From an uncultured Porphyromonadaceae bacterium (lineage in GTDB: Bacteria; Bacteroidota; Bacteroidia; Bacteroidales; Muribaculaceae): 53,382 nt of DNA. The stretch is from contig CAMWNI010000015.1 of the NCBI GenBank assembly GCA_947175545.1, positions 1 to 53,382 on the forward strand, in the 5' to 3' direction. A model generated the notes under the pieces. That model had not been told where the DNA came from. It saw only the letters and a list, made by a program, of their open reading frames with translations, and made no database searches. Shown piece by piece: positions 9,507 through 29,587 of this stretch (the stretch's first letter is position 1; each line of letters starts with the position of its first letter). A program made the translations under genes and the position numbers.

Positions 9507-9514
9507 TAACTTTG
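9507..9514 (+). promoter_or_regulatory. -7 box, probable promoter of the peptide operon
   Basis: TAACTTTG matches TAnnTTTG exactly, about 20 bp upstream of ATG 9535. The -33 position is poor. No equally good promoter with the right context was noticed further down the operon, so this one may serve all genes to 26339. Confidence 0.5.
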
Positions 9515-9534
9515 GACCATAAAATTTGTACATT

Positions 9535-10006
9535 ATGAAATTATCAAACTATTCATCATGTTTGTCTGTGTCTTTACAGCATCCGCATTGGCCGAGTTCC
9601 CAAGTCCTACTACACCACAAGAGTCTAAGTCAAAAGAAGTTCATTTGGTCTTGTGTATCCGGATTTTTATGCGTAACTTCGCACCATATTTCTTTACCTA
9701 TTTCAACCCTGACCTCGCACCTGTAAACAAACGGATTATCAAAACCTATAAGACGGAAGGCGAACAAGCGACCTGGGAGTTGCTAACCGACTGGTATATA
9801 AACAGTCACCCAAAGAGCATCCCTTTGCCAATACTCCCTCGCAGGAGATTACCGCCGAAACCGCCAAGGAGATAGTAGATGAACTTCTCCGCCACGACAG
9901 ATGGACCGCAAAAGCGGGAATATCAGTGACCCCCACAATCCTTATTGACGGCAAGCCTCTCCCCGCCGGCTACACCGTTGAAGACCTTATTTACCTATAC
10001 ACCTGA
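9535..10006 (+). pseudogene. Frameshifted fusion of a signal-peptide ORF to the C-terminus of a VKOR-thioredoxin gene
   Basis: The first part encodes a signal-peptide-like segment (LFIMFVCVFTASALA), out of frame with the nearest ATG at 9535. From about 9690 the sequence is a near copy of the C-terminal quarter of the VKOR-thioredoxin gene at 13515-15083: FFTYFNPDLAPVNKRI.. to ..TPTILIDGKPLPAGYTVEDL. One base is missing at CACCCAAAG (intact copy CACTCCAAAG), which shifts the frame. The last residues are read in a different frame to TGA 10004-10006. The VKOR membrane domain and the CxxC motifs are absent. This marks an ancestral first unit of the peptide operon that lost most of its maturation gene. 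Confidence 0.75.
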
Positions 10007-10014
10007 CCAAAAAC

Positions 10015-10030
10015 GAGGCCCAAAAGCCTC
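10015..10030 (+). promoter_or_regulatory. Conserved GAGGC..GCCTC hairpin ahead of the peptide relic
   Basis: GAGGC (10015-10019) and GCCTC (10026-10030) enclose CCAAAA. The same hairpin lies at 15092-15107 and, with a G-U pair, at 20150-20165, each time about 42-43 nt before a peptide ATG. Conservation across units suggests a role in the mRNA, for example end protection after processing, or translation control. Confidence 0.5.
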
Positions 10031-10072
10031 ACTAATTCACTCAATATTTAACCATTTAAACCCAAAAGAATC

Positions 10073-10173
10073 ATGAGCAAACTTCGGGCCAAGATGCGTG
10101 TACAAAAAAGTGCAACGAAGTTTGCGATTCGATGTCATCATGTGCAAGAGTAACCAAAGCATTATTCTGTTAA
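10073..10173 (+). pseudogene. Relic of a third six-cysteine peptide precursor
   Basis: The 5' leader and ATGAGCAAACT are identical to the start of the intact peptide gene at 15150. After MSKL the rest of the leader and the front of the core are deleted. From 10090, in the wrong frame for the ATG, the sequence reads QDACTKKCNEVCDSMSSC and ends at TAA 10171. The spacing C-x3-C-x3-C-x5-C is the same as in the intact peptide A. The stop of the ATG frame comes after 26 residues with no cysteine ladder. This is a dead member of the peptide family. Confidence 0.7.
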
Positions 10174-10279
10174 GTTCTCGTATCCATGGTGTTGCAAACC
10201 GTAATAACTTGAAATGCCTCAGGTATGGCAGGTCAATGTTGTGGATGGTTAGCAACACTATCAATTACTGTGTTGGAAA

Positions 10280-13072
10280 ATGAATGGATTGATACCATTG
10301 GTTCTGATGTCCATAGCATCTATTGTTTCGCCGATGAGTTATCGGTTACGCGTAGGTGCGGTGGTTCGTGACGGCTACACGGGATTAGACATACCGTATG
10401 CCAAGGTGTCGGTTATGGATTCGTCCGGACTGGTCGTGTGTGATTCGCTTCCACGAATAGAGAATCCATATAGAGATGAGCCTGACCGATACCTGTATAC
10501 TTCAACTTTAACAGTCGATTCTGTCAGAAATAGTTATATTCTCAGGGTTAGTGCGGATGGTTACGGTTCGCGGACTTTAGATGCGACAAGTTATTGGCTT
10601 AACGACTCTACGGCCGGAGTGTATGTTGAAGAGATAGAAATGTTTCTGTCGAAAAGAACTAAAACACTTGAAGAGGTAACAGTTACGGCATCTAAGGTGA
10701 AGATGGTAATGAATGGCGATACTTTGGTTTATGATGCAACGGCCTTTTGCTTGTCGGAAGGTTCAATGCTGGAAGAACTGATACGCGCACTCCCGGGAGC
10801 GAATTTGAGCGAATCAGGACAAATAACTGTCAATGGCAAATTTGTCCGTGAACTGCTGGTTAACGGGCGCAACTTTTTCAAGGGAGATCCAACAGTCGCC
10901 TTGGCGAATTTGCCGGCCTATACTGTGAGTAAAATCAAAGTCTATGACAAAAAAGAGATTCCTGCGGATGTGTTTGAAGAGCATATCGTAATGGACGTAG
11001 CCTTAAAGCGGGAATATGCCCACGGATTGATTTCCAATTATGAATTTGGTGGGGGCTCGGCTCTTCGGGGAGGTTGGAATTCCCGATGGCTCGGGCGCAT
11101 TTTTGCGATGTATTACTCTCCAATCAGTTCTTTGGCGGTGTATGCCAATGCCAACAATCTCAATGCCGAGAATCGCCCCGGATATCAAGGACGGTGGATT
11201 GAAAATATCACGACGTCGGGCCTGAAAACGGCCAAAAGTGCCGGCATAAACCACTCTCGGACTTGGAAAGAACAAAGATCTGAAATCAATAACAGCCTGA
11301 CTGTTACTCGCCGTAACAGTCATAATGAGGTGTCAACCTATCATGAAGCGTATCTTGAAGACAGCAGTATTTACAACAATAGCCATTTAAAGTCAGAAAC
11401 AAGAGAGACTGCCTTAGAGTTTTACAACGACTTCAAGCAAAATTTTGACAAGGGGTACTATAACACCGGCCTTAGTGCATGCTATGAGCATAATACAGCC
11501 GATGATAATATTGAGGTATCCGAATCTGACAATAATACCTCGAAGATATATTTACGCCAAAAAAAATCAACAGTAAAAGGTGACAAATATGGCGCTTATC
11601 TTTGGATGCATACTTATCTAAATTTAGGCCAAAAGATTCCGGCCAGTTTCCGTATTTGGGATCTTAGACTCAATGGCAGTTGCCGTGGTTCTTCTCGGTT
11701 AAATAACATTACGGACTTTATAGTTTATCCGGATAAAGTGTCGGATAATATTTCACGAATTTATCGAGAATCCCTCCCCGTAAATTCTCACAACATTAAA
11801 TTTGAAGCATTTTCCATTCGCACTTCATTCAACATTACAAAGCGCAGCGAATGTTACTACAATATAGGCTACAAGCTGGGATACACCTCTCAATCCGGCA
11901 GACGCGAAATGGACTATATGGCCGAAACGCCTAACTCCAACGACCTTTGGTTAAGGGATTTGGCAAATAGCTACTTCACAACAGAATCCGGGATTTCGAA
12001 TAAAATTGATTTTTTGGGCGGCATAGACGGACCTGTTAAATTACAGTTACATCTGACGGAAAATATCTTGACACGCCAAATTAAAGATAGGCGCGTAACC
12101 ACTTTATTTGTTGATAAAACGAACCTTCTTCTGTCTGGCTACTTAATTGCTTCGTTAGGCGAGGGAGAATGGAGCGAGGGCTCAAACTATAAACTTTCTC
12201 TAAATTATTCAGAAGAGGCGCCCCAAATGCTCCACTTGCTTCCGATTGTTGACACCTCCGATCCGATGTTGCGCTTTTGCGGTAATCCAGACCTCAGAAA
12301 GTCAATACTCTCATCGGCCGAATTTGTGTTCAATAATAATCAATCGCTGCATAACCGCCAAATCGTAGTTTCGTCCAAATATTCGCGTACAGACCGGTCG
12401 ATCACATCGGCCAGATTCTACAACCGACAGAATGGAATAACAATGATTATGCCCTACAATATTGACGGAAACTTTTTTGCCAACATTCATGGCTCATATT
12501 CTCAATATTTAGATAAAAGCGAACGGGTCTACCTTTCAAACTCTCTTAAAGGCGAGTTATTGCGTTCTGCGGACTATTCAACTGATTCGGACGTGCCTAA
12601 TGTTCTGAAGGTAAATAACTGGCAAATTAGTAACAACTTTGAACTTAAATGGACGCCGGGGAACGCAACCATCTCTGGCAAAGTCGACTTTAACTGGAAT
12701 AGACTTGTAAGTCTTGACCGGGTTTTTGCGCCATTTTATTTTATGCACGTAAACTATGGTATATTAGCCTCGATGCCATTGCATTGGGGTGTTGAAATAC
12801 AAACCGAACTGATGGTCTATTGTCGCCGTGGCTACGAAGAGACAACAATGAACACGACCGACTGGGTATGGAACCTCCAACTGAGCAAGACTTTCGGTTC
12901 CGCCAAGCAATGGACCGTCAAAGCCATCGGCTTTGACCTGCTCCACCAACTCCCGACCATTCGCCAGGTGGTCAACGCCCAAGGGCGAACCGAGACCCGC
13001 TATAACTCCCAGCCATCCTACGCACTGCTGACCCTCTCCTACCGCCTTGACATAAAACCCACGCGAAAATAA
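10280..13072 (+). CDS. Outer membrane beta-barrel protein 1 of the peptide operon
   Basis: A 930-residue TonB-receptor-like outer membrane protein. A signal peptide (about 1-19) leads into a carboxypeptidase-regulatory domain (about 25-125). A plug-like segment follows: EEVTVTASKVKMVMNGDT, EGSMLEELIRALPG, VNGKFVRELLVNGRNFF. A large barrel runs from about 250 to the C-terminus. It is paralogous to 15473-18283 and 20534-23443. The last 60 residues are almost identical to those of the third copy (TFGSAKQWTVKAIGFDLL..), which suggests gene conversion. No TonB box was identified. In context it may form the exit channel for the peptide, or serve as its receptor or immunity factor. Its own peptide gene upstream is dead. 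Confidence 0.85.
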   Translation: MNGLIPLVLMSIASIVSPMSYRLRVGAVVRDGYTGLDIPYAKVSVMDSSGLVVCDSLPRIENPYRDEPDRYLYTSTLTVDSVRNSYILRVSADGYGSRTLDATSYWLNDSTAGVYVEEIEMFLSKRTKTLEEVTVTASKVKMVMNGDTLVYDATAFCLSEGSMLEELIRALPGANLSESGQITVNGKFVRELLVNGRNFFKGDPTVALANLPAYTVSKIKVYDKKEIPADVFEEHIVMDVALKREYAHGLISNYEFGGGSALRGGWNSRWLGRIFAMYYSPISSLAVYANANNLNAENRPGYQGRWIENITTSGLKTAKSAGINHSRTWKEQRSEINNSLTVTRRNSHNEVSTYHEAYLEDSSIYNNSHLKSETRETALEFYNDFKQNFDKGYYNTGLSACYEHNTADDNIEVSESDNNTSKIYLRQKKSTVKGDKYGAYLWMHTYLNLGQKIPASFRIWDLRLNGSCRGSSRLNNITDFIVYPDKVSDNISRIYRESLPVNSHNIKFEAFSIRTSFNITKRSECYYNIGYKLGYTSQSGRREMDYMAETPNSNDLWLRDLANSYFTTESGISNKIDFLGGIDGPVKLQLHLTENILTRQIKDRRVTTLFVDKTNLLLSGYLIASLGEGEWSEGSNYKLSLNYSEEAPQMLHLLPIVDTSDPMLRFCGNPDLRKSILSSAEFVFNNNQSLHNRQIVVSSKYSRTDRSITSARFYNRQNGITMIMPYNIDGNFFANIHGSYSQYLDKSERVYLSNSLKGELLRSADYSTDSDVPNVLKVNNWQISNNFELKWTPGNATISGKVDFNWNRLVSLDRVFAPFYFMHVNYGILASMPLHWGVEIQTELMVYCRRGYEETTMNTTDWVWNLQLSKTFGSAKQWTVKAIGFDLLHQLPTIRQVVNAQGRTETRYNSQPSYALLTLSYRLDIKPTRK

Positions 13073-13514: not shown

Positions 13515-15083
13515 ATGCAGCAGCCCATTGTTGAAATAATCCTTTCGGAATTGAAAGTGCCATTCACTCCACTCTACCTCCGGCAAGTAGAGCGGGAGAT
13601 GCCTTACGGCGCCTCGCTATGGGCCATCGGGCAGATCCTGAACCGCTATAATGTTGACCATACGTCGCTGCGCGTTTCTAATAAGGAGCAGATTGGGCGG
13701 ATTCCATGTCCGTTTGTTGCCCAGGCCTCGGGCGACTGCGTGGTAGTCACCTCGGTAACCGACAATGAGGTTAAATATCGGACCACATCCGGTGCATTTT
13801 CGGCGCCGCTCGATACATTTAAGCAGGCCTGGACCGGCGCAGTAATGATAGTTAAGGCATCGGAAGCCTCTTCTGAACCTAACCTGAAAGACCACCGCCG
13901 GGAAGAGCGTAGCAATCGGTTGCAGAGAGTCTTGTCATATCTCGGGGTTATTGTCTTGCTTGTGGGCGCAGCGGTCGCCGGCAGACTCCCGGCATTGAGC
14001 ATATCTCTCGGCCTTGTTTACATTTTAGGAACATGGCTCTCAGTTTTGCTCCTCAAGAAGCAACTGAATATCAACAGCACCGCTGCCGACAAGATTTGCA
14101 GCCTGTTGAACTCAGCCGGTTGCACTGACGCGCACAAATCCGCAGGCCCGGGGCCTCTACTGTTCGGAATATTTGACCTGAGCATTGCCGGCATAGCGTT
14201 TTTCGGCGTAAATTTAGTGGCAACGCTCCTTAGTCCGCAGGGATTGGGAGGAGCGGTAAGTATCGCCGTGGCCCTTGCGCTACCTTTGACGCTCTGGAGC
14301 GTTGCTTACCAAGGGTTTAAGCGTAAGTCGTGGTGTGCGCTTTGCCTCTTGGTCATGGGTTGCGTATGGGTTGCGTTCGCAATCATGATTGTCGGGGGCA
14401 TATATCGGGATGTTACACTGACTCTTCCACTCCTTGGCGCCCTCACGGCAGTAGGCGCGGCTTACTGGCTGATCATGAGCGCGATGCGTTATCTGAGTGA
14501 TTATTACAAGAATGCGGAGCAGGATAAAAAGGAGAATACATCACTGCGCCAAATAAAGTTTGACAGTCATATCTGGGACTCACTGCTGCGTGACTCCGCG
14601 GAGACATATCCCGTTGAGGGAGAGGAGGCTTCAAGCATCTTCTTCGGCAATCCTGACTCGGAATTGCCGCTAATAACCATCGTCGGCAATCCGTTCTGCA
14701 ATCCGTGCGGAAGGATGCACTCGCGGCTTGAGCCGCTGATTGACGCCGGGTTCAGAATTCAATATTTCTTTACCTACTTCAACCCCGACCTCGCGCCCGT
14801 AAACAAACGAATTGTCGAAACCTACAAGACTAAAGGCGAACAAGCGACCTGGGAGTTGCTAACCGACTGGTACACAAACGGTCACTCCAAAGAGCATCCC
14901 TTTGCCAATCCTCCTGAGCAGGAAATCCCCGCGGAAACCGCCAAGGAGATAGTAGATGAACTCATCCGTCACGACAAATGGACCGCCAAAGCGGGAATAT
15001 CAGTGACCCCCACAATCCTTATTGACGGCAAGCCACTCCCCGCCGGCTACACCGTTGAAGACCTTATTTACCTATACACCTGA
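13515..15083 (+). CDS. VKOR-thioredoxin fusion with degenerate C39-like N-domain (disulfide formation)
   Basis: A 522-residue membrane thiol oxidase. Residues 1-115 look like the peptidase-C39-like domain often fused to Bacteroidetes VKOR proteins; no catalytic Cys is present at its start. A vitamin K epoxide reductase domain with several membrane helices spans about 135-330. It has the periplasmic loop pair C195-x7-C203 and the quinone-site CxxC (C274-C277). A thioredoxin/DsbA-like domain (about 375-522) has CNPC at 395-398 and the cis-Pro strand VTPTILIDG. VKOR-Trx fusions oxidise cysteines outside the cytoplasm and pass electrons to quinone. The next gene encodes a six-cysteine peptide, its likely substrate. 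An in-frame stop at 13506 fixes the ATG at 13515. Confidence 0.85.
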   Translation: MQQPIVEIILSELKVPFTPLYLRQVEREMPYGASLWAIGQILNRYNVDHTSLRVSNKEQIGRIPCPFVAQASGDCVVVTSVTDNEVKYRTTSGAFSAPLDTFKQAWTGAVMIVKASEASSEPNLKDHRREERSNRLQRVLSYLGVIVLLVGAAVAGRLPALSISLGLVYILGTWLSVLLLKKQLNINSTAADKICSLLNSAGCTDAHKSAGPGPLLFGIFDLSIAGIAFFGVNLVATLLSPQGLGGAVSIAVALALPLTLWSVAYQGFKRKSWCALCLLVMGCVWVAFAIMIVGGIYRDVTLTLPLLGALTAVGAAYWLIMSAMRYLSDYYKNAEQDKKENTSLRQIKFDSHIWDSLLRDSAETYPVEGEEASSIFFGNPDSELPLITIVGNPFCNPCGRMHSRLEPLIDAGFRIQYFFTYFNPDLAPVNKRIVETYKTKGEQATWELLTDWYTNGHSKEHPFANPPEQEIPAETAKEIVDELIRHDKWTAKAGISVTPTILIDGKPLPAGYTVEDLIYLYT

Positions 15084-15091
15084 CCAAAAAC

Positions 15092-15107
15092 GAGGCCCAA
15101 AAGCCTC
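15092..15107 (+). promoter_or_regulatory. Conserved intercistronic hairpin before peptide A
   Basis: GAGGC/GCCTC stem with loop CCAAAA, 42 nt before ATG 15150 and just after the VKOR-Trx stop. It is identical to the copy at 10015-10030. Confidence 0.5.
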
Positions 15108-15149
15108 ACTAATTCACTCAATATTTAACCATTTAAACCCAAAAGAATC

Positions 15150-15401
15150 ATGAGCAAACTCATCATTCCCGCTGCCGAACTCATCGGCACCCCTCTGACC
15201 CAGGAGGAACTCAAAGGCATCCTCGCCGGTGCAACCACTTACACTTGCCGTTGTAAACTAACTGTCAGAGGCAACCAGACGTCTTATGACATCAACGGCA
15301 TAGTAACCGAAGCTGATTGTCGCAAGGGATGCGCGTCTGACTGCGCTAAAACCGACGGATGCACCAACTCTAGTATAGAGTTCAATGTGAAAGATAATTA
15401 A
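15150..15401 (+). CDS. Peptide A: secreted six-cysteine peptide precursor with double-glycine-type leader
   Basis: An 83-residue precursor. The leader (1-27) MSKLIIPAAELIGTPLTQEE then LKGILAG ends in Ala-Gly with hydrophobic residues at -4 (Ile), -7 (Leu) and -12 (Leu), the pattern cut by C39 peptidases of ABC exporters. The 56-residue core has C33, C35, C57, C61, C65 and C71: CxC, then C-x3-C-x3-C-x5-C, enough for three disulfides. It carries Thr, Ser and Asn residues that could be modified. The gene sits between a disulfide-forming enzyme and an outer membrane barrel, and the C39 exporter is encoded in the same operon. I know no named family for it. A bacteriocin-like or signalling role is inferred. 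Confidence 0.85.
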   Translation: MSKLIIPAAELIGTPLTQEELKGILAGATTYTCRCKLTVRGNQTSYDINGIVTEADCRKGCASDCAKTDGCTNSSIEFNVKDN

Positions 15402-15414
15402 TCTTCCCTGATTG

Positions 15415-15454
15415 AGAGTGTTGCAGTCCCTCTTTTGGTACTCTGCGACACTCT
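15415..15454 (+). terminator. Intercistronic hairpin between peptide A and barrel 2 (partial terminator)
   Basis: Bases 15415-15426 pair with 15443-15454 over 12 bp with one G-U pair, followed by TTATTGCTT. The hairpin lies 13 nt after the peptide stop. A leaky terminator or 3'-end protector here would allow much more peptide mRNA than barrel mRNA, as in many bacteriocin operons. Confidence 0.6.
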
Positions 15455-15472
15455 TATTGCTTAAACTATTTT

Positions 15473-18283
15473 ATGAGCCACTCAAGTCGTTTAATACTAA
15501 AATATTGCTTGATGATAAGCTGCTTGCTTGTATGTTTTACGGCAGCGGCCCAAATTAACTATAAAGTTAATGTTTGCGATTCTATCACCGGGTTACCTAT
15601 TGACCCGGCAAATGTTAGTTTATTTGTCTTTAAAGAAAACACTAATGAAAGCGCAATTATTTCGAAGGGAATAATGTATACGAGCGACGGCTATCAAAGC
15701 ATTGCCTATCGCACTTTTACTCTTCCTCATCGTGATGACGTTTATGATATGACGATTGATGCGGAAGGTTATATTCCGCGCTCAATGAAATTGAGAGCAA
15801 GCACCAAGAACACTGAGGTGGATTTAGGGAAAATCAAGCTTGAACGCCTACCGAAGCAACTTGATGAGATATCAGTGGTCGCAACAAAAATCAAGGTGTT
15901 TTTTGATGGAGATACAGTAATATATAATGCCGACGCATTTATTCTGCCTGAAGGTTCAATGCTTGACGCTTTAGTCAAGCAACTGCCCGGAGTGGAGCTC
16001 AAATCCGACGGTCAGATTCTTCACAATGGTAAAAAGATCGAGAGTCTGCTCTTGAATGGCCGCAAACTCTTTGATAATGACCCCACTATTATGCTCAACA
16101 ATTTGGCGGCATATACCGTCAAGAATATCAAAGTATATGAACAAGACTCGGAGGCGGCATCCCTGCTTGGATATTCCGATGACAAAGAGTATGTGATGGA
16201 CGTAACCCTCAAAAAACAGTACATGGGTGCGACCTCAGTTCTGGCCGAGGGAGGATACGGGACTGAAAAACGTTATCTTGGCCGACTATTCGCAACCACA
16301 TTCACCTCAACCTCAGCCGTGGCGGCATATTTCAACGCAAACAATCTTTCAACTCAGAGCCTGCCCTGGAGCAAGTCAGATATTTGGGATACAAGTAGGA
16401 TTTCTCGAACCGGAGTATCCTCTTACATTGGGGGAGGTATGAATTATTCACTTAGCAGCTCAAAGCGCCAGGAATCATTGCGAGGACACATCGAAGCTAC
16501 GCGCACAACTACGGACTCTCGCAACGGAAGCCAAGGAGTACTTTTCCTGCCGGAGGGCGACAATATTTCAAACTCAGCATCAAAGAATTGGACCCGCGCG
16601 CTGAAATTCAACACCGCACATCACTATATGCGCCAAATCGGCAATTGGCAACTCACTGTCAACGCAAGGTTTGATTACGGCAACGCCAAATCCAAATCTG
16701 ACAGAGAGGCCGAAGTAAGCCGCGCGAATGACAATAGCTTAGTGAACCGTTCGCTTCATACCGCATCCTCTTCATCACATAATATTAAAGGGAATCTTAA
16801 TATGGATGCTCGGGTGCGCCTGCCCGACATTAAAGAAACAAAGCAGAATATGTCGATATGGGTCAGCGGCGACTACACCCGCTCTCATGGCAAATATGAT
16901 TCATTCTATTTGATTGACTATGGCATGAATCCGGACAGGACACAGTCGGAACAAGCCCGCCGGCAGGCATATCCCTCTTATATCGTAAATTACTGCGGTA
17001 GTTTGAAGTACAATCTCCGCTTCCCCCGGAATTACTCACTTTCCATAGGCGTCAACCACGACCATGCCCGGGATCGTAACACCGACTTCCGTTTCTTATT
17101 ACCCGCATATGCACTTGACCCGACCAATAGTTCCAAAACTCTGAGAAATGATGGCTCAACTCTCATTTTTTTGAACTCAGGAGCGCGCTGGGGCTACCCA
17201 TCAATGGCCGAAGGCGGCAAAGGACAACTGGACTTAAAAATAACTCCGTCAATTACATTTTTAAACAGGACTTACGAGTTTATGCGCCCCGAAGCAGACG
17301 CCATTAATCCGACCCGCAACGAAACATTTTGGTCATTGTCAGACTTTTCGCTTGACTACAAACTGACTCCCCGCGGGCGTAACAATCTATTGATATCACT
17401 GAAAGCGTCATCCGTGGTCAGGCCGCTTGATATGGCTTATTTGATTGACGTAGTAACGGATGCCGACCCTCTGAATATCCATCGCGGCAATCCCCATCTT
17501 CGTAATTCCCGCCATAACACTCTCGAACTCAAACCTTCCTTTGAATTGATTACTCCGGCTTATAACATCATGAACTATCTGACAATCAAGTATGTCACGA
17601 TTGACGATGACATAGTAAACGGCTGGATATACAACCCTGAGACCGGAGTGAGACGCCATAGCCCGTATAACGTTAACGGCACGCGCCACTTTTCCGTAGG
17701 CCTTTTCAGCTGGCTATACGGTAACACGTGGAGCATCAGGTGGAAAAACGAATATGCAAACAAACGCAATGCGGATATGGTTGGCTCCACAACTACCGAT
17801 TTCGACAATTATCGTCTCTCTCAGGAGTTTGTTTATAACAACAGTTACGATGGTTCATTACAAGGGACATATAACCCATGGAAATGGCTTGAACTCTCAC
17901 CGGAAGTGACATCGAAGGTGTCTCACTATAAAAGCAAAGCCGAAGACTTCATCCCGTTTACAGCCGTAGATATGACCTACAAGATGAGCCTTCAGTTCAA
18001 AATGCCTCATAACATATCTCTGACAACCGACCTTGCGCTGAACACCCGTCGGGGATATGCCGATTCCCATCTCAACACCGACGAATGGATACTCAATGCC
18101 GGCGCGCAATGGCACTGGCAGCGTCCCGGCCTGCGATTCATATTGGATGGCTACGACCTGCTCCACCAGATTTCACGCATAAGCTATGTAATCAACGCTC
18201 AGGGGCGCACTGAAAGTTGGGACAATACCATTCCCCGCTACGTCATGCTCCGCATCATATATCAATTCAACGCCTCCAAATAA
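15473..18283 (+). CDS. Outer membrane beta-barrel protein 2 of the peptide operon
   Basis: A 936-residue paralogue of the proteins at 10280 and 20534. A signal peptide (to about residue 26, ..CFTAAAQ) is followed by a carboxypeptidase-regulatory-like domain, a plug-like segment (DEISVVATKIKVFFDGDT, PEGSMLDALVKQLPGVEL, NGKKIESLLLNGRKLF, LAAYTVKNIKVYEQD) and a long barrel ending ..NAQGRTESWDN..YVMLRIIYQFNASK. It is the most divergent of the three in its C-terminal end. The gene follows peptide A after a hairpin and may be specific to it. No TolC is encoded in this operon, so a barrel of this type could be the outer membrane step of export; receptor or immunity roles are equally open. Confidence 0.85.
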   Translation: MSHSSRLILKYCLMISCLLVCFTAAAQINYKVNVCDSITGLPIDPANVSLFVFKENTNESAIISKGIMYTSDGYQSIAYRTFTLPHRDDVYDMTIDAEGYIPRSMKLRASTKNTEVDLGKIKLERLPKQLDEISVVATKIKVFFDGDTVIYNADAFILPEGSMLDALVKQLPGVELKSDGQILHNGKKIESLLLNGRKLFDNDPTIMLNNLAAYTVKNIKVYEQDSEAASLLGYSDDKEYVMDVTLKKQYMGATSVLAEGGYGTEKRYLGRLFATTFTSTSAVAAYFNANNLSTQSLPWSKSDIWDTSRISRTGVSSYIGGGMNYSLSSSKRQESLRGHIEATRTTTDSRNGSQGVLFLPEGDNISNSASKNWTRALKFNTAHHYMRQIGNWQLTVNARFDYGNAKSKSDREAEVSRANDNSLVNRSLHTASSSSHNIKGNLNMDARVRLPDIKETKQNMSIWVSGDYTRSHGKYDSFYLIDYGMNPDRTQSEQARRQAYPSYIVNYCGSLKYNLRFPRNYSLSIGVNHDHARDRNTDFRFLLPAYALDPTNSSKTLRNDGSTLIFLNSGARWGYPSMAEGGKGQLDLKITPSITFLNRTYEFMRPEADAINPTRNETFWSLSDFSLDYKLTPRGRNNLLISLKASSVVRPLDMAYLIDVVTDADPLNIHRGNPHLRNSRHNTLELKPSFELITPAYNIMNYLTIKYVTIDDDIVNGWIYNPETGVRRHSPYNVNGTRHFSVGLFSWLYGNTWSIRWKNEYANKRNADMVGSTTTDFDNYRLSQEFVYNNSYDGSLQGTYNPWKWLELSPEVTSKVSHYKSKAEDFIPFTAVDMTYKMSLQFKMPHNISLTTDLALNTRRGYADSHLNTDEWILNAGAQWHWQRPGLRFILDGYDLLHQISRISYVINAQGRTESWDNTIPRYVMLRIIYQFNASK

Positions 18284-18301
18284 CCAATCATCCTGAAAAA
18301 A

Positions 18302-20170
18302 ATGACAGAAAAACTACAAGTATATGCTGTGAACCTTGCGGCTCGGACTGAGCGCAGGGAGTCGATTATCGGCGAGTTTGAGGGGCGCGATGAGTTTGAA
18401 CTGCATATTGTGCCGGCAATCGAGCATCGCAACGGACCATACGGCCTGTGGCAGACTTTCTACGGCATTGTTGAGGAACAGGAGCGTCAGGGTAGTGAAT
18501 TTTTCATCTTCTGCGAGGATGACCATATCTTTACCGAGGCATACAGTAAGGATACGTTATTGCATTATATCCGGCTTGCGCAGAGTCTTGACGCCGACCT
18601 GCTGTCGGGTGGAATGTCCGTTTGTCGCAATCCCGTTGAGGTTGCGCCGGGACTCTTCTGGGTCAACTGGTTTAACGGGATGCAGTTTACGGTGATTTTC
18701 CGCCGCTGCTACCATAAGATTCTTGCCGCAAAGACCACTGAGGGTTATGCCGTTGATATTCAACTTTCCTATTTGGCGAAACGAAAATATGTTATGGCGC
18801 CATATATCAGCATTCAGCGTGAGTTTGGCTATTCCGACGCTACCAGTATCAACGAGGAGGAAGGGCGAGTAACCCGTTTTTTTCAGAAGAATGAAAGCCT
18901 TCTCGCTCAGCTGCATAAGGTTCGCAATCACTACTCAGCCATCTCGCCCGATACCCTGCACGCCATTATGTCGGCCGACGTAAGCCGTGCTTTCATACCC
19001 ACTTACGTCATTAACCTTCCGGAGCGAACAGACCGACTTGAGCATATCCGTAATGAATTTAAGGGTCGTCCGGAATTTGACCTGCATATTATCGAGGCAT
19101 CGCGCCACGAAATCGGCGCCATCGGCCTTTGGGAGAGTATCTGCCGAATCATTACCGAGGCCAAGGAGAACGATGAGGACTTCGTGCTGATATGTGAAGA
19201 CGACCATTTCTTTACGGAAGCATACAATCGCGAACACTTTCTGCGGCAGATAATGCTCGCCGGAGCAATGGGTGCGCAGATGCTTTCGGGCGGTATCGGT
19301 GACTTCTCTAACCTCGTCCCCCTGCCGGGTGGCGTGGCGTGGATTGACCGATTCTGGTGTACACAGTTCATCGTCATATTCCGCAACGCCTACGACCTGA
19401 TACTCAGCACTCCGTTCAGCCTGCGCGACGTGGCCGACGAAAAACTTTCCGCCCTGCTGACGGCCAAGATGGTTACCGTTCCATTCATCTCCGAGCAAAC
19501 CGACTTCGGCTATTCGGACATCACGGAGTCAAACAACCATGACTCCATGATTCGCCGCCACTTTGACAATATCCGCGCCAAGTTGCGCCATTATCCCATG
19601 GCGTTCAAGACTGCCGCGGAGCAACCCAACCCGGTGAGCATTGCCGACTATCTTGCCGCCGACGGTCCGAAAGCGCTACAATTGGGCTGCGGAATGAATC
19701 AGTTGCCCGGATGGCTCAACACCGACGTTGAGCCGGACTATGGAGTGACGTTTCTTGACGTGACCCAACCGATTCCGGCCCCAGACAACTCGTTTGACTT
19801 CATCTTTGCCGAACATCTCATTGAAAATTTCGGACCTAAAAGGCTCAAGAAAGTTTTAAGTGAATGTTTCCGTATCCTTACACCCGGAGGCACACTGCGC
19901 CTGACCTTCTATTGCGCTGACGCTCTGCGAAAAATGCCTGATTCAAAACAAATCAATGCTTTCATCTCCAGACTCAGCAAGGCCTACCTCCACCTCAGTG
20001 GCGAAATCAGCGCGCTTCTCACTGAAATGGGATTCGACCATATAAACCTCACTTCTCCGAACGAAAGCACCCATCAGGAACTGCAAAACGCCAATAAACA
20101 TAATCCCTACCTCCCCAAAGAGCAATACCTCAAAGAATCAACAACAATCGAGGCCCGAAAGCTTCACTAA
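18302..20170 (+). CDS. Tandem GT25-like glycosyltransferase fused to a methyltransferase-like domain
   Basis: A 622-residue cytosolic enzyme with no signal or membrane helix. Two homologous glycosyltransferase-family-25-like units lie in tandem. The first (about 1-225) has YAVNLAARTERRE and the acidic motif CEDDH; the second (about 235-430) has YVINLPERTDRLE and CEDDH again. Both end in a FGYSD segment. A class I SAM-methyltransferase-like domain (about 450-590) follows, with LQLGCGMNQLPGWLN, FDFIFAEHLIE and ILTPGGTLRLT. The gene lies directly before peptide B, in the place the VKOR-Trx gene occupies before peptide A. GT25 enzymes normally act on lipooligosaccharide or collagen-type acceptors. 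Here the most economical acceptor is the peptide, but that is inference. Confidence 0.8.
   Translation: MTEKLQVYAVNLAARTERRESIIGEFEGRDEFELHIVPAIEHRNGPYGLWQTFYGIVEEQERQGSEFFIFCEDDHIFTEAYSKDTLLHYIRLAQSLDADLLSGGMSVCRNPVEVAPGLFWVNWFNGMQFTVIFRRCYHKILAAKTTEGYAVDIQLSYLAKRKYVMAPYISIQREFGYSDATSINEEEGRVTRFFQKNESLLAQLHKVRNHYSAISPDTLHAIMSADVSRAFIPTYVINLPERTDRLEHIRNEFKGRPEFDLHIIEASRHEIGAIGLWESICRIITEAKENDEDFVLICEDDHFFTEAYNREHFLRQIMLAGAMGAQMLSGGIGDFSNLVPLPGGVAWIDRFWCTQFIVIFRNAYDLILSTPFSLRDVADEKLSALLTAKMVTVPFISEQTDFGYSDITESNNHDSMIRRHFDNIRAKLRHYPMAFKTAAEQPNPVSIADYLAADGPKALQLGCGMNQLPGWLNTDVEPDYGVTFLDVTQPIPAPDNSFDFIFAEHLIENFGPKRLKKVLSECFRILTPGGTLRLTFYCADALRKMPDSKQINAFISRLSKAYLHLSGEISALLTEMGFDHINLTSPNESTHQELQNANKHNPYLPKEQYLKESTTIEARKLH
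20150..20165 (+). promoter_or_regulatory. Conserved intercistronic hairpin before peptide B
   Basis: GAGGC (20150-20154) and GCTTC (20161-20165) enclose CCGAAA. Compared with the copies at 10015 and 15092, one base change turns a G-C pair into G-U and leaves the stem intact. The hairpin overlaps the end of the glycosyltransferase gene, 42 nt before the peptide ATG. Confidence 0.5.
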
Positions 20171-20206
20171 TCAACTAAATATTAACCATTTAAACTCAAA
20201 AGGATT

Positions 20207-20467
20207 ATGAGTAAACTCATCATTCCTGCTGCCGAACACATCGGCACCCCTCTGACCCCGGAGGAACTCAAAGGCATCCTCGCCGGACGTGACTATTTCA
20301 AGAGATGTCAGTGTAGCCTAAACTATGGAGGCGATGAGTGGTTTCCATTCCAGCCCGATGCCAAGAACATCAACAGTCTTGAAGAATGTGGCGCATCGTG
20401 CAAAGAGACTTGCATAGACAAAAAATGTGCGAGCGTTACCTACTACTTCACAGAAGGCTATAACTAA
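20207..20467 (+). CDS. Peptide B: secreted six-cysteine peptide precursor with double-glycine-type leader
   Basis: An 86-residue precursor. The 27-residue leader differs from that of peptide A at only two positions (His11 for Leu, Pro18 for Gln) and ends ..EELKGILAG. The core is quite different except for the cysteines C34, C36, C61, C65, C69 and C74: CxC, then C-x3-C-x3-C-x4-C. It is rich in aromatic residues (YF, WFPF, YYF). The conserved leader with a fast-changing core is typical of exported, post-translationally modified peptides. It follows the glycosyltransferase-methyltransferase gene and precedes barrel 3, so it may be glycosylated as well as disulfide-bonded. Confidence 0.85.
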   Translation: MSKLIIPAAEHIGTPLTPEELKGILAGRDYFKRCQCSLNYGGDEWFPFQPDAKNINSLEECGASCKETCIDKKCASVTYYFTEGYN

Positions 20468-20533: not shown

Positions 20534-23443
20534 ATGGGCAGATTACTCATATTTCTAATTGTGTTTTTTCTTGGACTTTCAGTTGCGGCATATGCTAAGG
20601 AGCAACCTGACTCGCTGATTAATGTCAGCGGAGCCGTCCTTGACGCCGTGACTGAAGTTCCTTTACGTAATGCGAGGGTCATAATCAAGGATTCTTTAGG
20701 TGTTGTTCTGATTGACTCCCTTGGCTATGAAGTTGGTGAAAGTTATCGAACATCTTATGAAATTGTTCGATATACGGGGAGAGTACCCATTCGTGGTAAA
20801 TATTTAGTATCAATCTCTGCAAAGGGTTATCAGCCGGAGGAATTTGATGTGCGGCCAACAAAGGTTATCAGCAACTGGGGGTCGGGAACCTACTTAGACC
20901 TCGGTAAAACCTATATGAGATATCCACAGAAGGAACGACGCCTCAAAGAAGTAACCGTCACGGCCACAAAGGTTAAGATGGTGATGAAAGGCGACACTTT
21001 GGAATATGACGCCACGGCCTTTCAACTTCCGGAGGGTTCGATGCTTGACAATCTGATTCGTGAACTTCCGGGAGCGCAATTAGATGATAACGGGCGGATT
21101 ACGGTCAACGGACAGTTTGTAGATCAACTGTTGGTCAACGGTCGCAAGTTCTTTCAGGGCGACCCACAAGTTGCCTTGCGCAATCTCCCGGCTTTTACGG
21201 TCAAAAACGTGCAGGTCTATCGCCGCGAGCCGGAGGAGTTTCGCGGGAGCAACATTGAGCGCGATAAGAGTAATGACCCCTTGGTCATGGACGTAAACCT
21301 CAAAAAGGAATATCTGGGCGGATGGTTGGCCAATGCTGAAATCGGTGGCGGCACGTCGCTGAAAAACGCGTGGGATACCCGCTGGATGGGCCGACTGTTT
21401 GCAATGCGCTATACCAGACTTAATTATCTTGCGCTTCATGCCTCGGCCAATAATCTCAACGACCCGGAAAAAGCCGGCTCAAAAGGTCAATGGTATAAAC
21501 CGCAGGTTTCCGCCGGCGAGACCACGACCAAACGAGCCGGAATAGAGTTTAACACGGACTGGGCCGACCAAAGCTATAACGGCATAAATACGACATTCAA
21601 TATCGTTCGCCAAACGAGTCTGACCGGTCAAACGGCCATAAGCGAGCAATTTATGGAAGGAGGGAACACGTTTAGCCGTTCAAATAATTCCGCTCGCCGC
21701 AGTTCATGGAGTATTGACTGGGGAGGGGAAATCTCACGCCGCTTTGACAAAATCGGGCGCATTTGGTTCCGCACGGACATCAACTTCGATAAAGGTACAG
21801 GCCGACGCACCTCCTCCTCGGCCGAAAGCAACTCTATGCTCCCGGAGAACTTCACCGCCCCCGGTTCAATAGACTTTGCTCAAGATATGCTCTATTATCG
21901 CAGTCAGCGCCTGCTCAGCCGCGATCAAAAATTTGGCGTCAAGAGCCGCTTGCTCTTCAACTTATACTGCTTGCCCTCCAAATATGGTAGCGCCGGCATT
22001 GAAATCAAAGGTGCTCACAATAATTCGAGAGTGTCTTCCGAAAGTTCAGACCTCATTATTTATCCCAATGCTCTGAATCGCGACATCAACCTCCTGCAAC
22101 ATGATTTGGCCCCGTCAAGAGACTATAATTTCTCCATATCTCCATCATGGGACAGATATAGGATTGCTCTTTCAGAAACGAAATTCCTCAATTTACGATT
22201 GGGCTATAAATATGAGCAAAAATACAATCTCGGCCGACGCTCTCTTGAAGAAATGAATCTCCAAGAGTCGGATTCAGACGCGCCCTCTATGTCAGAATCC
22301 GGAAGTTGGTTTCTTGATGAAGCAAATAGTTATCACACCACCCGCCGGGAATGGAACAACGAAATTAATGCCTATATCGCCTATAGTTTTGGCGGGAAAT
22401 ATGGCCTCTCGTTCTCAGGAGCCTCCACATATTCAATTCGTCGACTAACCGACTTCCGCATGCAAACCATGCGTGAAGTTGCGCGCAATGATTGGAAAAA
22501 CTCCGCCAGAATCAAATTCGACTATGGCGATTACTGGACTCCCGGGCTTGGCTGGGGCTTTGACGGAATTTTCAATCAGGAGTTGCCTGATATGCTGAAG
22601 ATGCTTGATGTCCGCGACTCGTCAAATCCGCTGGTCACCAATCTCGGCAACCCCAACCTCAAGCGCGAGAAGACTTATACAGTATCAGCTTACATCCGTC
22701 ATAAAAAAAACACAGGATTAAAGACTCAGTTTGATTTATCGGCGGAATGGAGTAAGGTTGACGACGCATTGGCAATGGCGCGCACCTATAATCGCGAAAC
22801 CGGCGTTACGACTTGGCAACCCGCCAATATCAACGGAAACTGGACGGCAAACATTAAACTTGAAACGTTCTCTTTCCTGACCCGAAACAATAATCTCGAA
22901 TTTAACAATTCATTTATACCGCGATTTAGACATAACGTTGATTATTCATCAGACTCAGATATTCCTGTGGCCGTAGCCGTCAACAGTTGGACAATCCGTG
23001 ATGATTTCCGCCTGAGTTATAACTTTTCGGCAGATTTCAAATTGAACTCTAAGGTCAACGTCAGCTGGACTCAGATGAAGAGCCTCGACGGACTTTTCCT
23101 GCCATTTGACTATCTGGACATTAATTATGGCATCGGCGGACGCGCAAAAATCCCGGGAGAAGTCTACATTGACACCGACCTGATGGCCTACTGCCGCCGC
23201 GGTTATGGCGACGCGACTATGAACCGCACGGACTGGGTCTGGAACCTTGAAATCAGTAAGTCCTTCGGCAGCGCAAAGCAATGGACCGTCAAGGCCATCG
23301 GCTTCGACCTGCTTCAACAGCTCCCAACCGTACAACGTACCCTCAACGCCCAGGGCCGCTCCGAAATCCGCCTCAATTCCCAGCCCGCCTACGCCCTGCT
23401 GACCCTCGCTTACCGCCTCGACGTCAAACCCAAGCGAAAATAA
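20534..23443 (+). CDS. Outer membrane beta-barrel protein 3 of the peptide operon
   Basis: A 969-residue paralogue of the two upstream barrels. A signal peptide (to about 21, ..GLSVAAYAK) is followed by a carboxypeptidase-regulatory domain (ISGAVLDAVTEV-type repeat at about 29-115), a plug-like part (KEVTVTATKVKMVMKGDTLE, PEGSMLDNLIRELPGAQLDD, VNGQFVDQLLVNGRKFF) and a barrel to the end. It is closest to barrel 1, nearly identical in the last 60 residues. Its stop overlaps the exporter start (TAATG), so translation is coupled, which ties the barrel and the inner membrane exporter functionally. Confidence 0.87.
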   Translation: MGRLLIFLIVFFLGLSVAAYAKEQPDSLINVSGAVLDAVTEVPLRNARVIIKDSLGVVLIDSLGYEVGESYRTSYEIVRYTGRVPIRGKYLVSISAKGYQPEEFDVRPTKVISNWGSGTYLDLGKTYMRYPQKERRLKEVTVTATKVKMVMKGDTLEYDATAFQLPEGSMLDNLIRELPGAQLDDNGRITVNGQFVDQLLVNGRKFFQGDPQVALRNLPAFTVKNVQVYRREPEEFRGSNIERDKSNDPLVMDVNLKKEYLGGWLANAEIGGGTSLKNAWDTRWMGRLFAMRYTRLNYLALHASANNLNDPEKAGSKGQWYKPQVSAGETTTKRAGIEFNTDWADQSYNGINTTFNIVRQTSLTGQTAISEQFMEGGNTFSRSNNSARRSSWSIDWGGEISRRFDKIGRIWFRTDINFDKGTGRRTSSSAESNSMLPENFTAPGSIDFAQDMLYYRSQRLLSRDQKFGVKSRLLFNLYCLPSKYGSAGIEIKGAHNNSRVSSESSDLIIYPNALNRDINLLQHDLAPSRDYNFSISPSWDRYRIALSETKFLNLRLGYKYEQKYNLGRRSLEEMNLQESDSDAPSMSESGSWFLDEANSYHTTRREWNNEINAYIAYSFGGKYGLSFSGASTYSIRRLTDFRMQTMREVARNDWKNSARIKFDYGDYWTPGLGWGFDGIFNQELPDMLKMLDVRDSSNPLVTNLGNPNLKREKTYTVSAYIRHKKNTGLKTQFDLSAEWSKVDDALAMARTYNRETGVTTWQPANINGNWTANIKLETFSFLTRNNNLEFNNSFIPRFRHNVDYSSDSDIPVAVAVNSWTIRDDFRLSYNFSADFKLNSKVNVSWTQMKSLDGLFLPFDYLDINYGIGGRAKIPGEVYIDTDLMAYCRRGYGDATMNRTDWVWNLEISKSFGSAKQWTVKAIGFDLLQQLPTVQRTLNAQGRSEIRLNSQPAYALLTLAYRLDVKPKRK

Positions 23444-25656
23444 TGCGAAAGTTTCCTCATTATCATCAACTTAACATGATGGACTGCGGTCCGGCTTGTC
23501 TGCGGATGGTTGCGCAGTATTACGGGCGGCATTACTCGCTGGAGACCCTGCAAAAGAGGTCGTTCATTACCCGCGAGGGTGTCTCAATGCTCGGATTGAG
23601 CGATGCCGCCGAAAGCATCGGTATGCGCTCAACGGGTATCCGCACATCGGTTGAGCGACTGACCAAAGCGGCGCCGACGCCTTGTATTCTCCATTGGAAT
23701 TCCAAACACTTTGTGGTTCTCTGCAAGGTTTTTAAGCGCCGCGGGAAGACTATTTACCGCATAGCCGACCCGGCTTCGCAGATTGTTGACTATGACGCCA
23801 AGGAGTTTGCAAAATGCTGGGTAAGTTCCGGCAACTCCAATGGCGAAAAATTAGGCACGGTTCTCCTGCTTGAGCCGTCGCCTCAGTTCTACGAATCGCC
23901 CGGCGAAAATCGCGACACTACCTGGCGAGGACTGGCTCACTTCGGCCGCTATCTGCTGCCCTACAAGCGGCAGTTCGTCCAGTTGGGCTTGGCTTTACTC
24001 ATCGGCAGCGTCTTGCAGTTGATTTTCCCGTTCCTGACTCAGGCGCTTGTCGATGTGGGCATCGGCGGCCGCCACGTCGGGTTCGTAACGATGATATTGA
24101 TGGCTCAACTCTTCCTGTTCATCTCGCAGTTGATGGTCGGGTTCCTGCGAAGTTGGATTACTCTACATGTGAACGCCCGAATTGATATTGCGCTGATTTC
24201 CGACTTCCTGATAAAGTTGATGAGGTTGCCGTTGCGCTTCTTCGACTCGAAGATGACCGGAGACCTGATGCAGCGAATCGGCGACCATGCCCGCATCAAG
24301 TCGCTGCTAATGAATAACTCGCTCAACATCATCTTCTCGGCCTTCAACTTCTTGATATTCGCCGCTATCTTGGGCTACTATTATATGCCTATCCTGCTGA
24401 TTTTCCTCGGCGGCAACGCTCTCTATGTCCTATGGATATGGGGCTTTATGAAATACCGTCGCGAACTTGACATCCGACGCTTCAACCTCTCGGCAAGCGA
24501 GCAAAGTTCCGTAATCCAGTTGATTCAGGGCATGCAGGAAATCAAACTCAACAACAGCGAGCGCCAGAAACGCTGGGAGTGGGAGCGGATTCAGGTAAAA
24601 CTCTTCAGAGTCGGGTTGCGCGGCCTTGCAATCGGTCAGATTCAGCAAGTGGGCAGCGCTTTCTTCACGCAAAGCACCAACATACTGATAACCTTCATCG
24701 CCGCCAAGGCCGTAATTGACGGGCAGATGACCCTCGGCATGATGATGTCAATGACCTACATTATCGGTCAACTGTCGGCACCCATCGGCGACCTAATTGG
24801 CCTAACTCAAGCCGTTCAGGACGCGAAAATCAGCCTTGAGCGCCTCAACGAAATCCACAAACAGCCTGACGAGGAGCAAGACATTGACTCAAAGCAGACC
24901 GATGTGCCTACAGACAAACCAATTACCCTTTCAGACGTCAAATTCAGTTATAGTGGGGCCGAGCGGGACTACGCACTCGACGGAGTAAGCCTTACCATTG
25001 AGCCGAACAAAGTGACCGCCATAGTCGGCGCAAGCGGAAGCGGCAAGACCACAATCGTAAAACTTCTCCAAGGCTTCTACGAACCGATGCACGGCTCTAT
25101 CAAAATCGGTCCGACTCCGCTCAATATGCTTAATCCTCATAAGTGGCGTGAGGTCTCCGGCTCGGTCATGCAGGAGGGTTTCATATTCTCTGACACCATT
25201 GCCCGAAATATCGCCGTCTCGACCGACGAAATAGACGCCAAGCGCCTGGCCCACGCCGTCCGGGTGGCCAACATCGAGGACTTTATCCTTTCCCTACCGA
25301 TGGGGTATAACACAAAAATCGGTATGGAAGGCAACGGAATCAGTTCCGGTCAGAAACAGAGAATACTGATTGCTCGCGCAGTCTACAAAAATCCGCAATT
25401 CATCTTCTTTGACGAAGCAACAAACTCACTCGACGCCAACAACGAAAGCATCATCATGCAGAACCTAAAAACCTTCTATAAGGGCAAAACCGTAGTAATC
25501 GTTGCCCATCGCCTCAGTACCGTTGTTGACGCAGACAAAATCATTGTCATGGATCACGGAAAGGTGGTCGAGGAAGGGACGCACTCCGAACTCCTCTCCC
25601 GCCAAGGATCATATTATACACTCGTTAAAAACCAAATTGAACTCGGACTGTCATGA
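23443..25656 (+). CDS. Peptidase-C39-containing ABC transporter (peptide processing and export)
   Basis: A 737-residue PCAT-type exporter that removes double-glycine leaders and pumps the peptide across the inner membrane. The C39 peptidase domain (1-130) shows the triad C15 (MMDCGPACL), H89 (SKHFVVL) and D109 (RIADPAS). A six-helix ABC membrane domain spans about 155-430. The ATPase carries Walker A VGASGSGKTT, signature ISSGQKQR, Walker B FIFFDEATNSLD and the H-loop AHRLST. The start at 23443 is chosen over a longer frame because it begins the C39 domain and overlaps the barrel stop as TAATG. A relic of the same start follows barrel 1. The likely substrates are peptides A and B. Confidence 0.95.
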   Translation: MRKFPHYHQLNMMDCGPACLRMVAQYYGRHYSLETLQKRSFITREGVSMLGLSDAAESIGMRSTGIRTSVERLTKAAPTPCILHWNSKHFVVLCKVFKRRGKTIYRIADPASQIVDYDAKEFAKCWVSSGNSNGEKLGTVLLLEPSPQFYESPGENRDTTWRGLAHFGRYLLPYKRQFVQLGLALLIGSVLQLIFPFLTQALVDVGIGGRHVGFVTMILMAQLFLFISQLMVGFLRSWITLHVNARIDIALISDFLIKLMRLPLRFFDSKMTGDLMQRIGDHARIKSLLMNNSLNIIFSAFNFLIFAAILGYYYMPILLIFLGGNALYVLWIWGFMKYRRELDIRRFNLSASEQSSVIQLIQGMQEIKLNNSERQKRWEWERIQVKLFRVGLRGLAIGQIQQVGSAFFTQSTNILITFIAAKAVIDGQMTLGMMMSMTYIIGQLSAPIGDLIGLTQAVQDAKISLERLNEIHKQPDEEQDIDSKQTDVPTDKPITLSDVKFSYSGAERDYALDGVSLTIEPNKVTAIVGASGSGKTTIVKLLQGFYEPMHGSIKIGPTPLNMLNPHKWREVSGSVMQEGFIFSDTIARNIAVSTDEIDAKRLAHAVRVANIEDFILSLPMGYNTKIGMEGNGISSGQKQRILIARAVYKNPQFIFFDEATNSLDANNESIIMQNLKTFYKGKTVVIVAHRLSTVVDADKIIVMDHGKVVEEGTHSELLSRQGSYYTLVKNQIELGLS

Positions 25657-26339
25657 GCGAACCAAACTTGAAAGGCCTTGACCTGCATAGCGAAGAAGTA
25701 CAGGAACTGATGGGCGCAGTCCCCTCGTGGATTCATCGATGGGGAATAACCCTTATTGCCCTGATACTGATCGGTGCGTTATCCCTGTGTGCGACCATCC
25801 GGCTTCCCGAACGCTATGAAATAGAGCTTACCCCCCTCGCCACAGACGGAAGCACGATAATCTCAATGCCCGATGGAGTGAAAATCAAGCGGATATACGT
25901 CACCAACAACACATCTGTCAAGGCGAACGATACGCTGATTGCTTACACCGACGACACATTCGCGACCACTCCTATAGCCGGAAGCGTTACTTACATAGGT
26001 CCTGTCCACGAAGATACGCCGATTCCAGCTGGTACCGAACTACTCAAAGTGGTCAACGAAAGCCCGGCCGACTCGACAATCTACTACGCATATATCCCGC
26101 AAAACATCGCATCTAAAATAAGCCGCGGCCAACAAATACCCCTCCCCGAAATAGGCACCGGAATCGTCAAGACCATCTCCTACAGCCCCAACTCCCAAGA
26201 AAACTATTACATTGAAATATCATCAAATAACTCTAATCATTTCCATAACCACATCAAAACTGACCTAACTATCTCCTCCCAAACTATCCTGCAAAAACTA
26301 CTTACGACAATCCGCCATAAAACAAAAATAATAAACTAA
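25653..26339 (+). CDS. Short HlyD-like membrane fusion protein
   Basis: A 228-residue adaptor whose ATG overlaps the exporter stop (ATGA). A short cytoplasmic N-terminus precedes one membrane helix (about 30-50, ITLIALILIGALSLCA). The periplasmic part shows lipoyl/biotinyl-like halves (DGVKIKRIYVTNNTSVKAND.., PIAGSVTYIGPVHEDTPIPAGTELLKV). It lacks the long coiled-coil hairpin that normally reaches TolC, and it is about half the usual length. That fits a route to a non-TolC outer membrane partner, perhaps the barrels encoded here. It is the last gene of the operon. Confidence 0.8.
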   Translation: MSEPNLKGLDLHSEEVQELMGAVPSWIHRWGITLIALILIGALSLCATIRLPERYEIELTPLATDGSTIISMPDGVKIKRIYVTNNTSVKANDTLIAYTDDTFATTPIAGSVTYIGPVHEDTPIPAGTELLKVVNESPADSTIYYAYIPQNIASKISRGQQIPLPEIGTGIVKTISYSPNSQENYYIEISSNNSNHFHNHIKTDLTISSQTILQKLLTTIRHKTKIIN

Positions 26340-26844: not shown

Positions 26845-26874
26845 GGTTTTGCAGCTGACCGATTTTTGATTGCA

Positions 26875-26909: not shown

Positions 26910-26912
26910 TTG

Positions 26913-29577: not shown

Positions 29578-29587
29578 GCACATCCAT

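Follow-up and report, generated by a model that had tools for sequence, protein, structure and literature searches.

A number of peptide systems have been described that share traits with the locus reported here, which lies in a stretch of 53,382 nucleotides (the window; all coordinates count from its first letter) from contig CAMWNI010000015.1 of an uncultured gut bacterium of the Porphyromonadaceae and encodes two small cysteine-rich peptides, A and B, among genes for outer-membrane barrels and for putative modification and export. The bacteroidetocins are, likewise, peptides of Bacteroidetes with a C39-type leader and several cysteines, their genes being grouped with those for a C39 ABC exporter and a thiol oxidoreductase; the accessible part of the account by Coyne et al. 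(2019; PMC6671954) reports that they are less active when the thiol oxidoreductase gene is missing and that Bacteroides lack general disulfide-forming machinery. In glycocins such as thermoglycocin a precursor, a PCAT (a C39 peptidase joined to an ABC exporter), one or more thioredoxin-like proteins and a glycosyltransferase are clustered, and three disulfides are possible, according to the portion of PMC12457901 that was available. Precursors of the TIGR04149 or GG-Bacteroidales kind resemble those described here in leader shape and, in the clusters covered by the available text of PMC10352776, occur with a PCAT and an outer-membrane protein. For BSAP-1/OmpR and BSAP-2/O-antigen the excerpted PMC4999547 describes a toxin gene adjoining the gene or genes for a surface molecule that is not targeted, an outer-membrane barrel in the case of BSAP-1. 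What is new in the present locus is an exchangeable cassette consisting of a peptide and a barrel.

Open frames of 83 and 86 amino acids are present on the forward strand, as are all genes of the locus, at 15150-15401 (A) and 20207-20467 (B), and they are, as the preliminary description had proposed, two six-cysteine peptides with one leader and different cores. The 27-residue leaders (15150-15230 and 20207-20287) are identical at 25 positions, whereas the cores (56 amino acids at 15231-15398 in A, 59 at 20288-20464 in B) share only 13 of 54 aligned residues, six of which are the cysteines. The leader of A, LTQEELKGILAG, and that of B, LTPEELKGILAG, both end in LKGILAG and have, read from the sequence, Leu at -12, Glu at -8, Leu at -7, Ile at -4, Ala at -2 and Gly at -1; they fit the rule for C39-processed leaders (hydrophobic residues at -4, -7 and -12 and small residues at -2 and -1), with AG replacing GG, and the claim of such a leader was correct. 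The intervals between successive cysteines are 1-21-3-3-5 in A and 1-24-3-3-4 in B, a ladder that, with a final gap of 4-6 allowed, arose in shuffled cores at a frequency of 1e-4 (A) and 5e-5 (B), each core having been shuffled 20,000 times. The spacing originally given (CxC, then x3, x3 and x4/5) thus describes A and B, but the last gap spans 4 to 7 in their relatives. In the DNA a 142-base repeat comprising the 5' untranslated region and the leader (15088-15229 and 20146-20286, 90% identity) stops one base short of the leader end. When seven leader copies were compared in bins of 27 bases, the leader bins of the 21 pairs had identities of 0.85-1.00, and in 20 of these pairs the value fell to 0.07-0.48 for the first bin of the core, the exception being A and peptide f of a second genome, with 0.78 in that bin and 0.33 in the next. 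The border of DNA identity sits at the predicted cleavage site. The reading of A and B as chance open frames was rejected because the leader and its 5' DNA are repeated at 90% identity and the second genome has homologues.

That second genome, G061, belongs to the same genus as the genome of the window and holds four intact peptides, c, d, f and g (the last with a TTG start), together with one leader-only remnant. All 15 pairs among the six intact peptides have leaders identical at 24-26 of 27 positions, and outside the cysteines their cores are 10-38% identical. The cysteine intervals in d, f and g are 1-24-3-3-5, 1-22-3-3-5 and 1-23-3-3-7, so that the ladder is kept in five of the six, and both genomes that bear the family have a PCAT in the cluster. 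A search with A matched these two of 149 family genomes. A profile of the six peptides again had strong matches in these two when 397 family genomes were searched, and it matched two of 11 genomes in the genus and one of 393 in the order (that of the window); weak rows (E 0.006-0.08) in 15 further family genomes were taken as chance. The family is called narrow because only 2 of the 397 genomes carry it. No library used (Pfam, NCBIfam, PHROGs, PADLOC) named A or B, the sole row being an irrelevant sub-cut-off Pfam match of A; the NCBIfam leader models TIGR01847 and TIGR04149 gave no match to either up to E 1, and both were left unmatched by bacteriocin_sig in the NCBIfam scan. A profile search of the PDB ranked the PCAT1 substrate CtA third (E 0.89, not significant), a weak lead in which the alignment covers the leader and the Gly-Gly of CtA falls at the same place. 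A phage peptide was also considered and rejected, there being no PHROGs match and no relative among viral contigs. In the part of the literature covered no description of this peptide family was recognised. The earlier suggestion of a family without a described counterpart holds in so far as the libraries leave it unnamed, but the family is not isolated, and its oxidase, leader shape and exporter are of a wider Bacteroidota kind. A and B form a narrow family within a known kind, the double-glycine-type, PCAT-exported peptides of Bacteroidota; they are probably secreted, C39-processed, disulfide-type peptides with a constant leader and a variable core.

The neighbours named in the preliminary description (a C39 exporter, a VKOR-thioredoxin oxidase and a glycosyltransferase) are all present, with the qualification that the glycosyltransferase is a 622-amino-acid fusion with a methyltransferase domain. 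Absent from that account were three barrel genes and a short HlyD-like gene, and its interpretation, though sound in outline, was incomplete in its most important part, for it overlooked an outer-membrane partner for each peptide, the exchangeable slots and a broken third peptide. All six intact peptides have a barrel gene directly downstream; in the window these are OMP2 (936 amino acids, 15473-18283) after A and OMP3 (969 amino acids, 20534-23443) after B. The two loci hold ten barrels (three in the window and seven in G061), all open and 930-1112 amino acids long, six of which (OMP2, OMP3, OMPc, OMPd, OMPf and OMPg) lie directly 3' of an intact peptide. The other four are intact though their own peptide is broken or missing: OMP1 (930 amino acids, 10280-13072) is preceded by a peptide with an internal deletion, OMPb by a leader ending at a stop 12 codons on, OMPe by a stub of the first leader codons and OMPa by a VKOR 5' fragment only. 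In the broken third gene of the window (approximately 10073-10192) the first leader codons and the 3' half of a core are fused with a shift of frame; the profile matches 10051-10164 with an internal stop, the three-frame translation agrees, and 10083-10192 is 89% identical to the region of peptide d. Upstream of it the 3' end of the VKOR-thioredoxin gene is found a second time, in decayed form (9686-10003), where 9686-10083 is 93% identical to 14762-15160 and a protein match to query residues 458-522 falls at 9809-10003. Barrels occupying the same slot in the window and G061 are only 29% (after VKOR) and 36% (after the fusion gene) identical, whereas near-identical barrels occur at different places, OMP1 and OMPd at 94% and OMP3 and OMPe at 91% (lower over the first ~180 residues). 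The peptide is intact in just one genome of each near-identical pair, and therefore each species has a barrel matching the other's intact peptide. As the broken remnant shares 21 of 28 residues with d and OMP1 matches OMPd so closely, core and barrel have in this case travelled together. Elsewhere in the window's own genome (L095, G000 contig 32, 795-3700) a further 920-amino-acid barrel lies ahead of a broken PCAT start; no peptide was seen there, and the site appears to be the remains of a cluster.

The reading favoured here, to which a probability of roughly one half is given, is that the locus makes secreted mini-proteins, each a constant handle joined to a variable active part, from cassettes of core and barrel; that these act as bacteriocins of narrow range on related bacteria; and that the barrel is their cognate partner in the outer membrane. 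By analogy with the bacteroidetocins a bacteriocin would be the likeliest product. The gene at 13515-15083 encodes the probable peptide oxidase, in which Pfam Peptidase_C39 and VKOR exceed their cut-offs and Thioredoxin_4 falls below. Its N-terminal Peptidase_C39 match is degenerate, aligning without the Cys of DCGPAC and without the His that are both kept in the PCAT, and plausibly this inactive domain binds the leader that the peptides have in common, delivering the precursor to the oxidase. The oxidase would then oxidise the six cysteines, probably giving three disulfides, while the C39-like domain holds the leader. The fusion protein (18302-20170; Pfam Glyco_transf_25 and methyltransferase domains, with two GT25-like repeats recognised by eye only) may modify the peptide before export. 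The PCAT (23443-25656), identified by Pfam and NCBIfam, has an ATG that overlaps the OMP3 stop, a Peptidase_C39 match of 101.6 bits and an intact catalytic DCGPAC; it would export all the precursors, one exporter serving every peptide, and cut after Ala-Gly. It is followed by a short membrane-fusion-type protein of 228 amino acids (25653-26339; HlyD_3 E 0.024, below cut-off). Protein identity between the window and G061 is 94% for the oxidase, 94% for the fusion, 98% for the PCAT and 86% for the HlyD-like protein. Before the cut the machinery would read the leader; after it only the core could be read at the outer membrane, because the leader would have gone with export. Each core would have its own barrel, a variant immunity or receptor protein, and core and barrel would therefore be inherited and swapped as one cassette around fixed leader-reading machinery. 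Such an account predicts a constant leader and machinery and a variable core and barrel, as is seen. A leader-guided dedicated oxidase would explain how such bacteria make disulfide-rich peptides. A radical SAM product was ruled out, no radical SAM match having appeared when ten operon and flanking proteins were scanned with Pfam and NCBIfam, and a defence system was likewise rejected, a PADLOC scan of six locus proteins having returned one weak match, to the methyltransferase domain only.

Relatives of the oxidase were matched in 167 of the 397 family genomes, either full-length (~520 amino acids) or short (~340 amino acids) and without thioredoxin. Small open reading frames with at least four cysteines were counted in flanks of 1.1-1.5 kb at the 30 best oxidase loci, L043 (with internal stops) being set aside, and were present at 9 of 14 full-length loci (7 of 12 once the window and the corresponding G061 locus are excluded) compared with 1 of 15 short ones, the lone frame being acetyltransferase-like by eye. 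When larger stretches were taken, cysteine-rich peptides were seen at 13 of 16 other full-length loci, the three without a visible one being L065, L068 and L077. Barrel matches were clear in 6 of the 16 full-length stretches, weak in L076 and found in none of four short controls; in L064 a barrel of the OMP family lies directly 3' of a different cysteine-rich peptide. GT4-type and short LanC-like genes were recurrent neighbours of the full-length oxidase at L063-L078, as checked in examples, and of ten cysteine-rich peptides inside the family none reached an NCBIfam curated cut-off. As a hold-out, eight full-length loci from six genomes outside the family were fetched after the pattern had been seen: all eight have cysteine-rich small open reading frames, five of the stretches contain a PCAT match, and by our count 24 of the 25 candidate peptides have a leader ending in Gly-Gly and one in Gly-Ala. 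Ten of these candidates were scanned, of which one passes TIGR04149 and bacteriocin_sig and another misses TIGR04149 by 0.1 bit. At L129, also outside the family, eleven candidate cysteine-rich leader peptides are found within 8 kb around one oxidase gene. A leader motif, written after the peptides had been seen, fitted 16 of 17 of them, where shuffling would give 0.28, and 4 of 216 background open reading frames; it was over-fitted, since only 8 of the 25 hold-out candidates, in 6 of the 8 loci, conformed. The feature that generalises is the leader ending in Gly-Gly. The full-length C39-like-VKOR-thioredoxin gene is a usable beacon for cysteine-rich peptides that current models miss. A further setting for the barrels is provided by four clusters of G061 (C45, C8, C39 and C2; L096, L098, L105 and L106) in which a radical SAM gene, recognised by eye in C39 and C2, and a cysteine-rich Gly-Gly precursor are followed directly by a barrel; one of the four also has a PCAT and a short downstream open reading frame.

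That the OMP family are barrels is well supported, but their assignment as TonB transporters is only likely. Pfam assigns OMP2 to OMP_b-brl_3 (PF14905) and nothing above cut-off to OMP1 or OMP3, a Plug domain, which in TonB-dependent transporters sits within a barrel of 22 strands, was matched in none of the three, and no PDB relative of OMP3 was found by sequence up to E 1; OMP3 is homologous to the other two. An AlphaFold model of OMP3 from seven sequences was poor (pLDDT 50.6, pTM 0.43) and shows, at low confidence, an N-terminal beta domain, a plug-like stretch and a long barrel. A stretch EVTVTA ahead of the plug-like region is, by resemblance, a candidate TonB box. Foldseek searches with this poor model gave 46 rows at E<=0.001, of which 44 carry the title of a TonB-dependent transporter and two are LptD (query TM-scores 0.11-0.22), and a second aligner returned porins, AlgE, LptD and TonB transporters at near-tied Z and was thus unspecific. 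The transporter matches, which include RagA and B12 transporters, bear on an alternative in which the peptides would be secreted signals or scavengers, akin to pheromones or metallophores, and the barrels TonB-type uptake receptors. The one-to-one pairing would suit such a role, and orphan barrels could take up or listen to the peptides of others; with no regulator adjoining the peptide genes and a dedicated thiol oxidase that fits metal binding poorly, it is judged improbable. A different role for the barrel, less doubtful but still unlikely, is that of a dedicated exit pore, the PCAT and the short HlyD-like protein passing each mature peptide to its own barrel. No TolC-type gene is present between 8.5 and 27 kb, and the G061 radical SAM clusters, one with a PCAT, suggest a part required for every product; moreover, Bacteroidales clusters for ribosomally synthesised and post-translationally modified peptides combine a PCAT with an outer-membrane protein, four of them having no detected fusion protein in the available text of PMC10352776. 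Against an exit pore, the Foldseek matches, for what the poor model and the unspecific second aligner allow, are mostly importers and not exporters, an OEP gene exists outside the operon at 46038-47348, and in four of the ten barrel genes the frame has stayed open although no intact peptide precedes it. The persistence of barrels beyond their peptides speaks more for an immunity or receptor function than for an exit pore.

Five long blocks of the locus are 90.8-95.7% identical in DNA between the window and G061, whereas the five longest matches of window 26400-40000 are 66-82% identical and at other places, and a single short match was obtained for 1-9600; all or much of the locus has therefore moved between species. 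Synonymous divergence (dS) differs along the locus (0.08 for OMP1/OMPd, 0.15 for the oxidase, 0.23 for OMP3/OMPe, 0.31 for the fusion, 0.36 for the PCAT and 0.47 for the HlyD-like gene), as if some barrels had been swapped later than the machinery. The locus is flanked by an integrase-type gene for a Phage_int_SAM_5 protein (3588-5021, reverse strand) and a tRNA-Arg (26912-26986, reverse strand); a tRNA att repeat was looked for there and none was found. An inverted copy of a piece of ~100 bases (26752-26851) is divided between 5335-5380 and 5784-5835. The adjoining 817-amino-acid protein (6113-8566, reverse strand) has sub-threshold carboxypeptidase-regulatory, MG2 and TonB plug matches.

Several observations weigh against the bacteriocin-cassette reading. 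Peptide c has only five cysteines and does not fit the ladder, no PCAT match was found in 20 wider family stretches, many of which end at contig ends, and a signalling role would fit as well. The ratio of non-synonymous to synonymous substitution (dN/dS) is 0.36 for OMP1/OMPd, compared with 0.20 for the oxidase, 0.10 for the fusion, 0.03 for the PCAT and 0.16 for the HlyD-like gene, and because it exceeds that of the machinery genes the orphan barrel may be under relaxed selection; for OMP3/OMPe it is 0.26, or 0.15 past codon 180, values obtained without a close outgroup. Furthermore, A and f have the most alike cores (25 of 56 residues), yet their barrels are 29% identical, and core and barrel similarity are therefore not always coupled. 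This mismatch would fit a rival view in which peptide and barrel are associated only because one ancestral block was duplicated in tandem, with no functional pairing, and block duplication has indeed happened, since VKOR fragments precede several cassettes. As barrels of the same family also follow the unrelated Gly-Gly precursors of the four radical SAM clusters and the different peptide of L064, the association is older than the duplications, and an explanation by duplication alone is the least probable of those considered. The bacteriocin-cassette reading may be drawn more sharply as a polymorphic system in which a fixed leader-reading machine (inactive-C39 oxidase, glycosyltransferase-methyltransferase fusion and PCAT) serves swappable units of core and barrel, with their DNA border at the cleavage site and the barrel as the cognate immunity or receptor determinant, retained or gained by strains even where the peptide is lacking (orphan immunity); that fuller form is put forward tentatively, as clearly less probable than its alternatives taken together. 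The close pairing of peptides and barrels, and the existence of orphan barrels, make the crossing of the outer membrane, and whether a cell is spared or hit, directly testable.

Each of the known systems differs from the present locus in several respects. Bacteroidetocins, set apart here by the described lengths of leader and peptide and not by sequence comparison, have 15-16-residue leaders ending in GG, mature peptides of 35-50 amino acids and a separate gene with five transmembrane segments, and a barrel goes unmentioned in the available part of PMC6671954; the peptides described here have 27-residue leaders ending in AG, cores of 56-59 amino acids with six cysteines, a barrel for each peptide, a glycosyltransferase-methyltransferase fusion and several peptides at one locus. 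The glycocins are Gram-positive products with nested disulfides, a third loop and S-linked N-acetylglucosamine, as far as the accessible text of PMC12457901 goes, whereas the glycosyltransferase of the present locus is GT25-like and forms one protein with a methyltransferase domain, and glycosylation is only putative. That G061 has members of the barrel family next to radical SAM precursors is a further likeness to the TIGR04149 or GG-Bacteroidales kind, but in the excerpt of PMC10352776 eight of nine clusters have a radical SAM enzyme and one a LanM, in place of which an oxidase is found here. The BSAPs are MACPF proteins for which, in the part of PMC4999547 at hand, one target is replaced, whereas here several barrels are found together and persist even when their peptide does not; by analogy, the position of BSAP genes next to those of non-targeted surface molecules offers a precedent for the barrel as a putative immunity or receptor partner.

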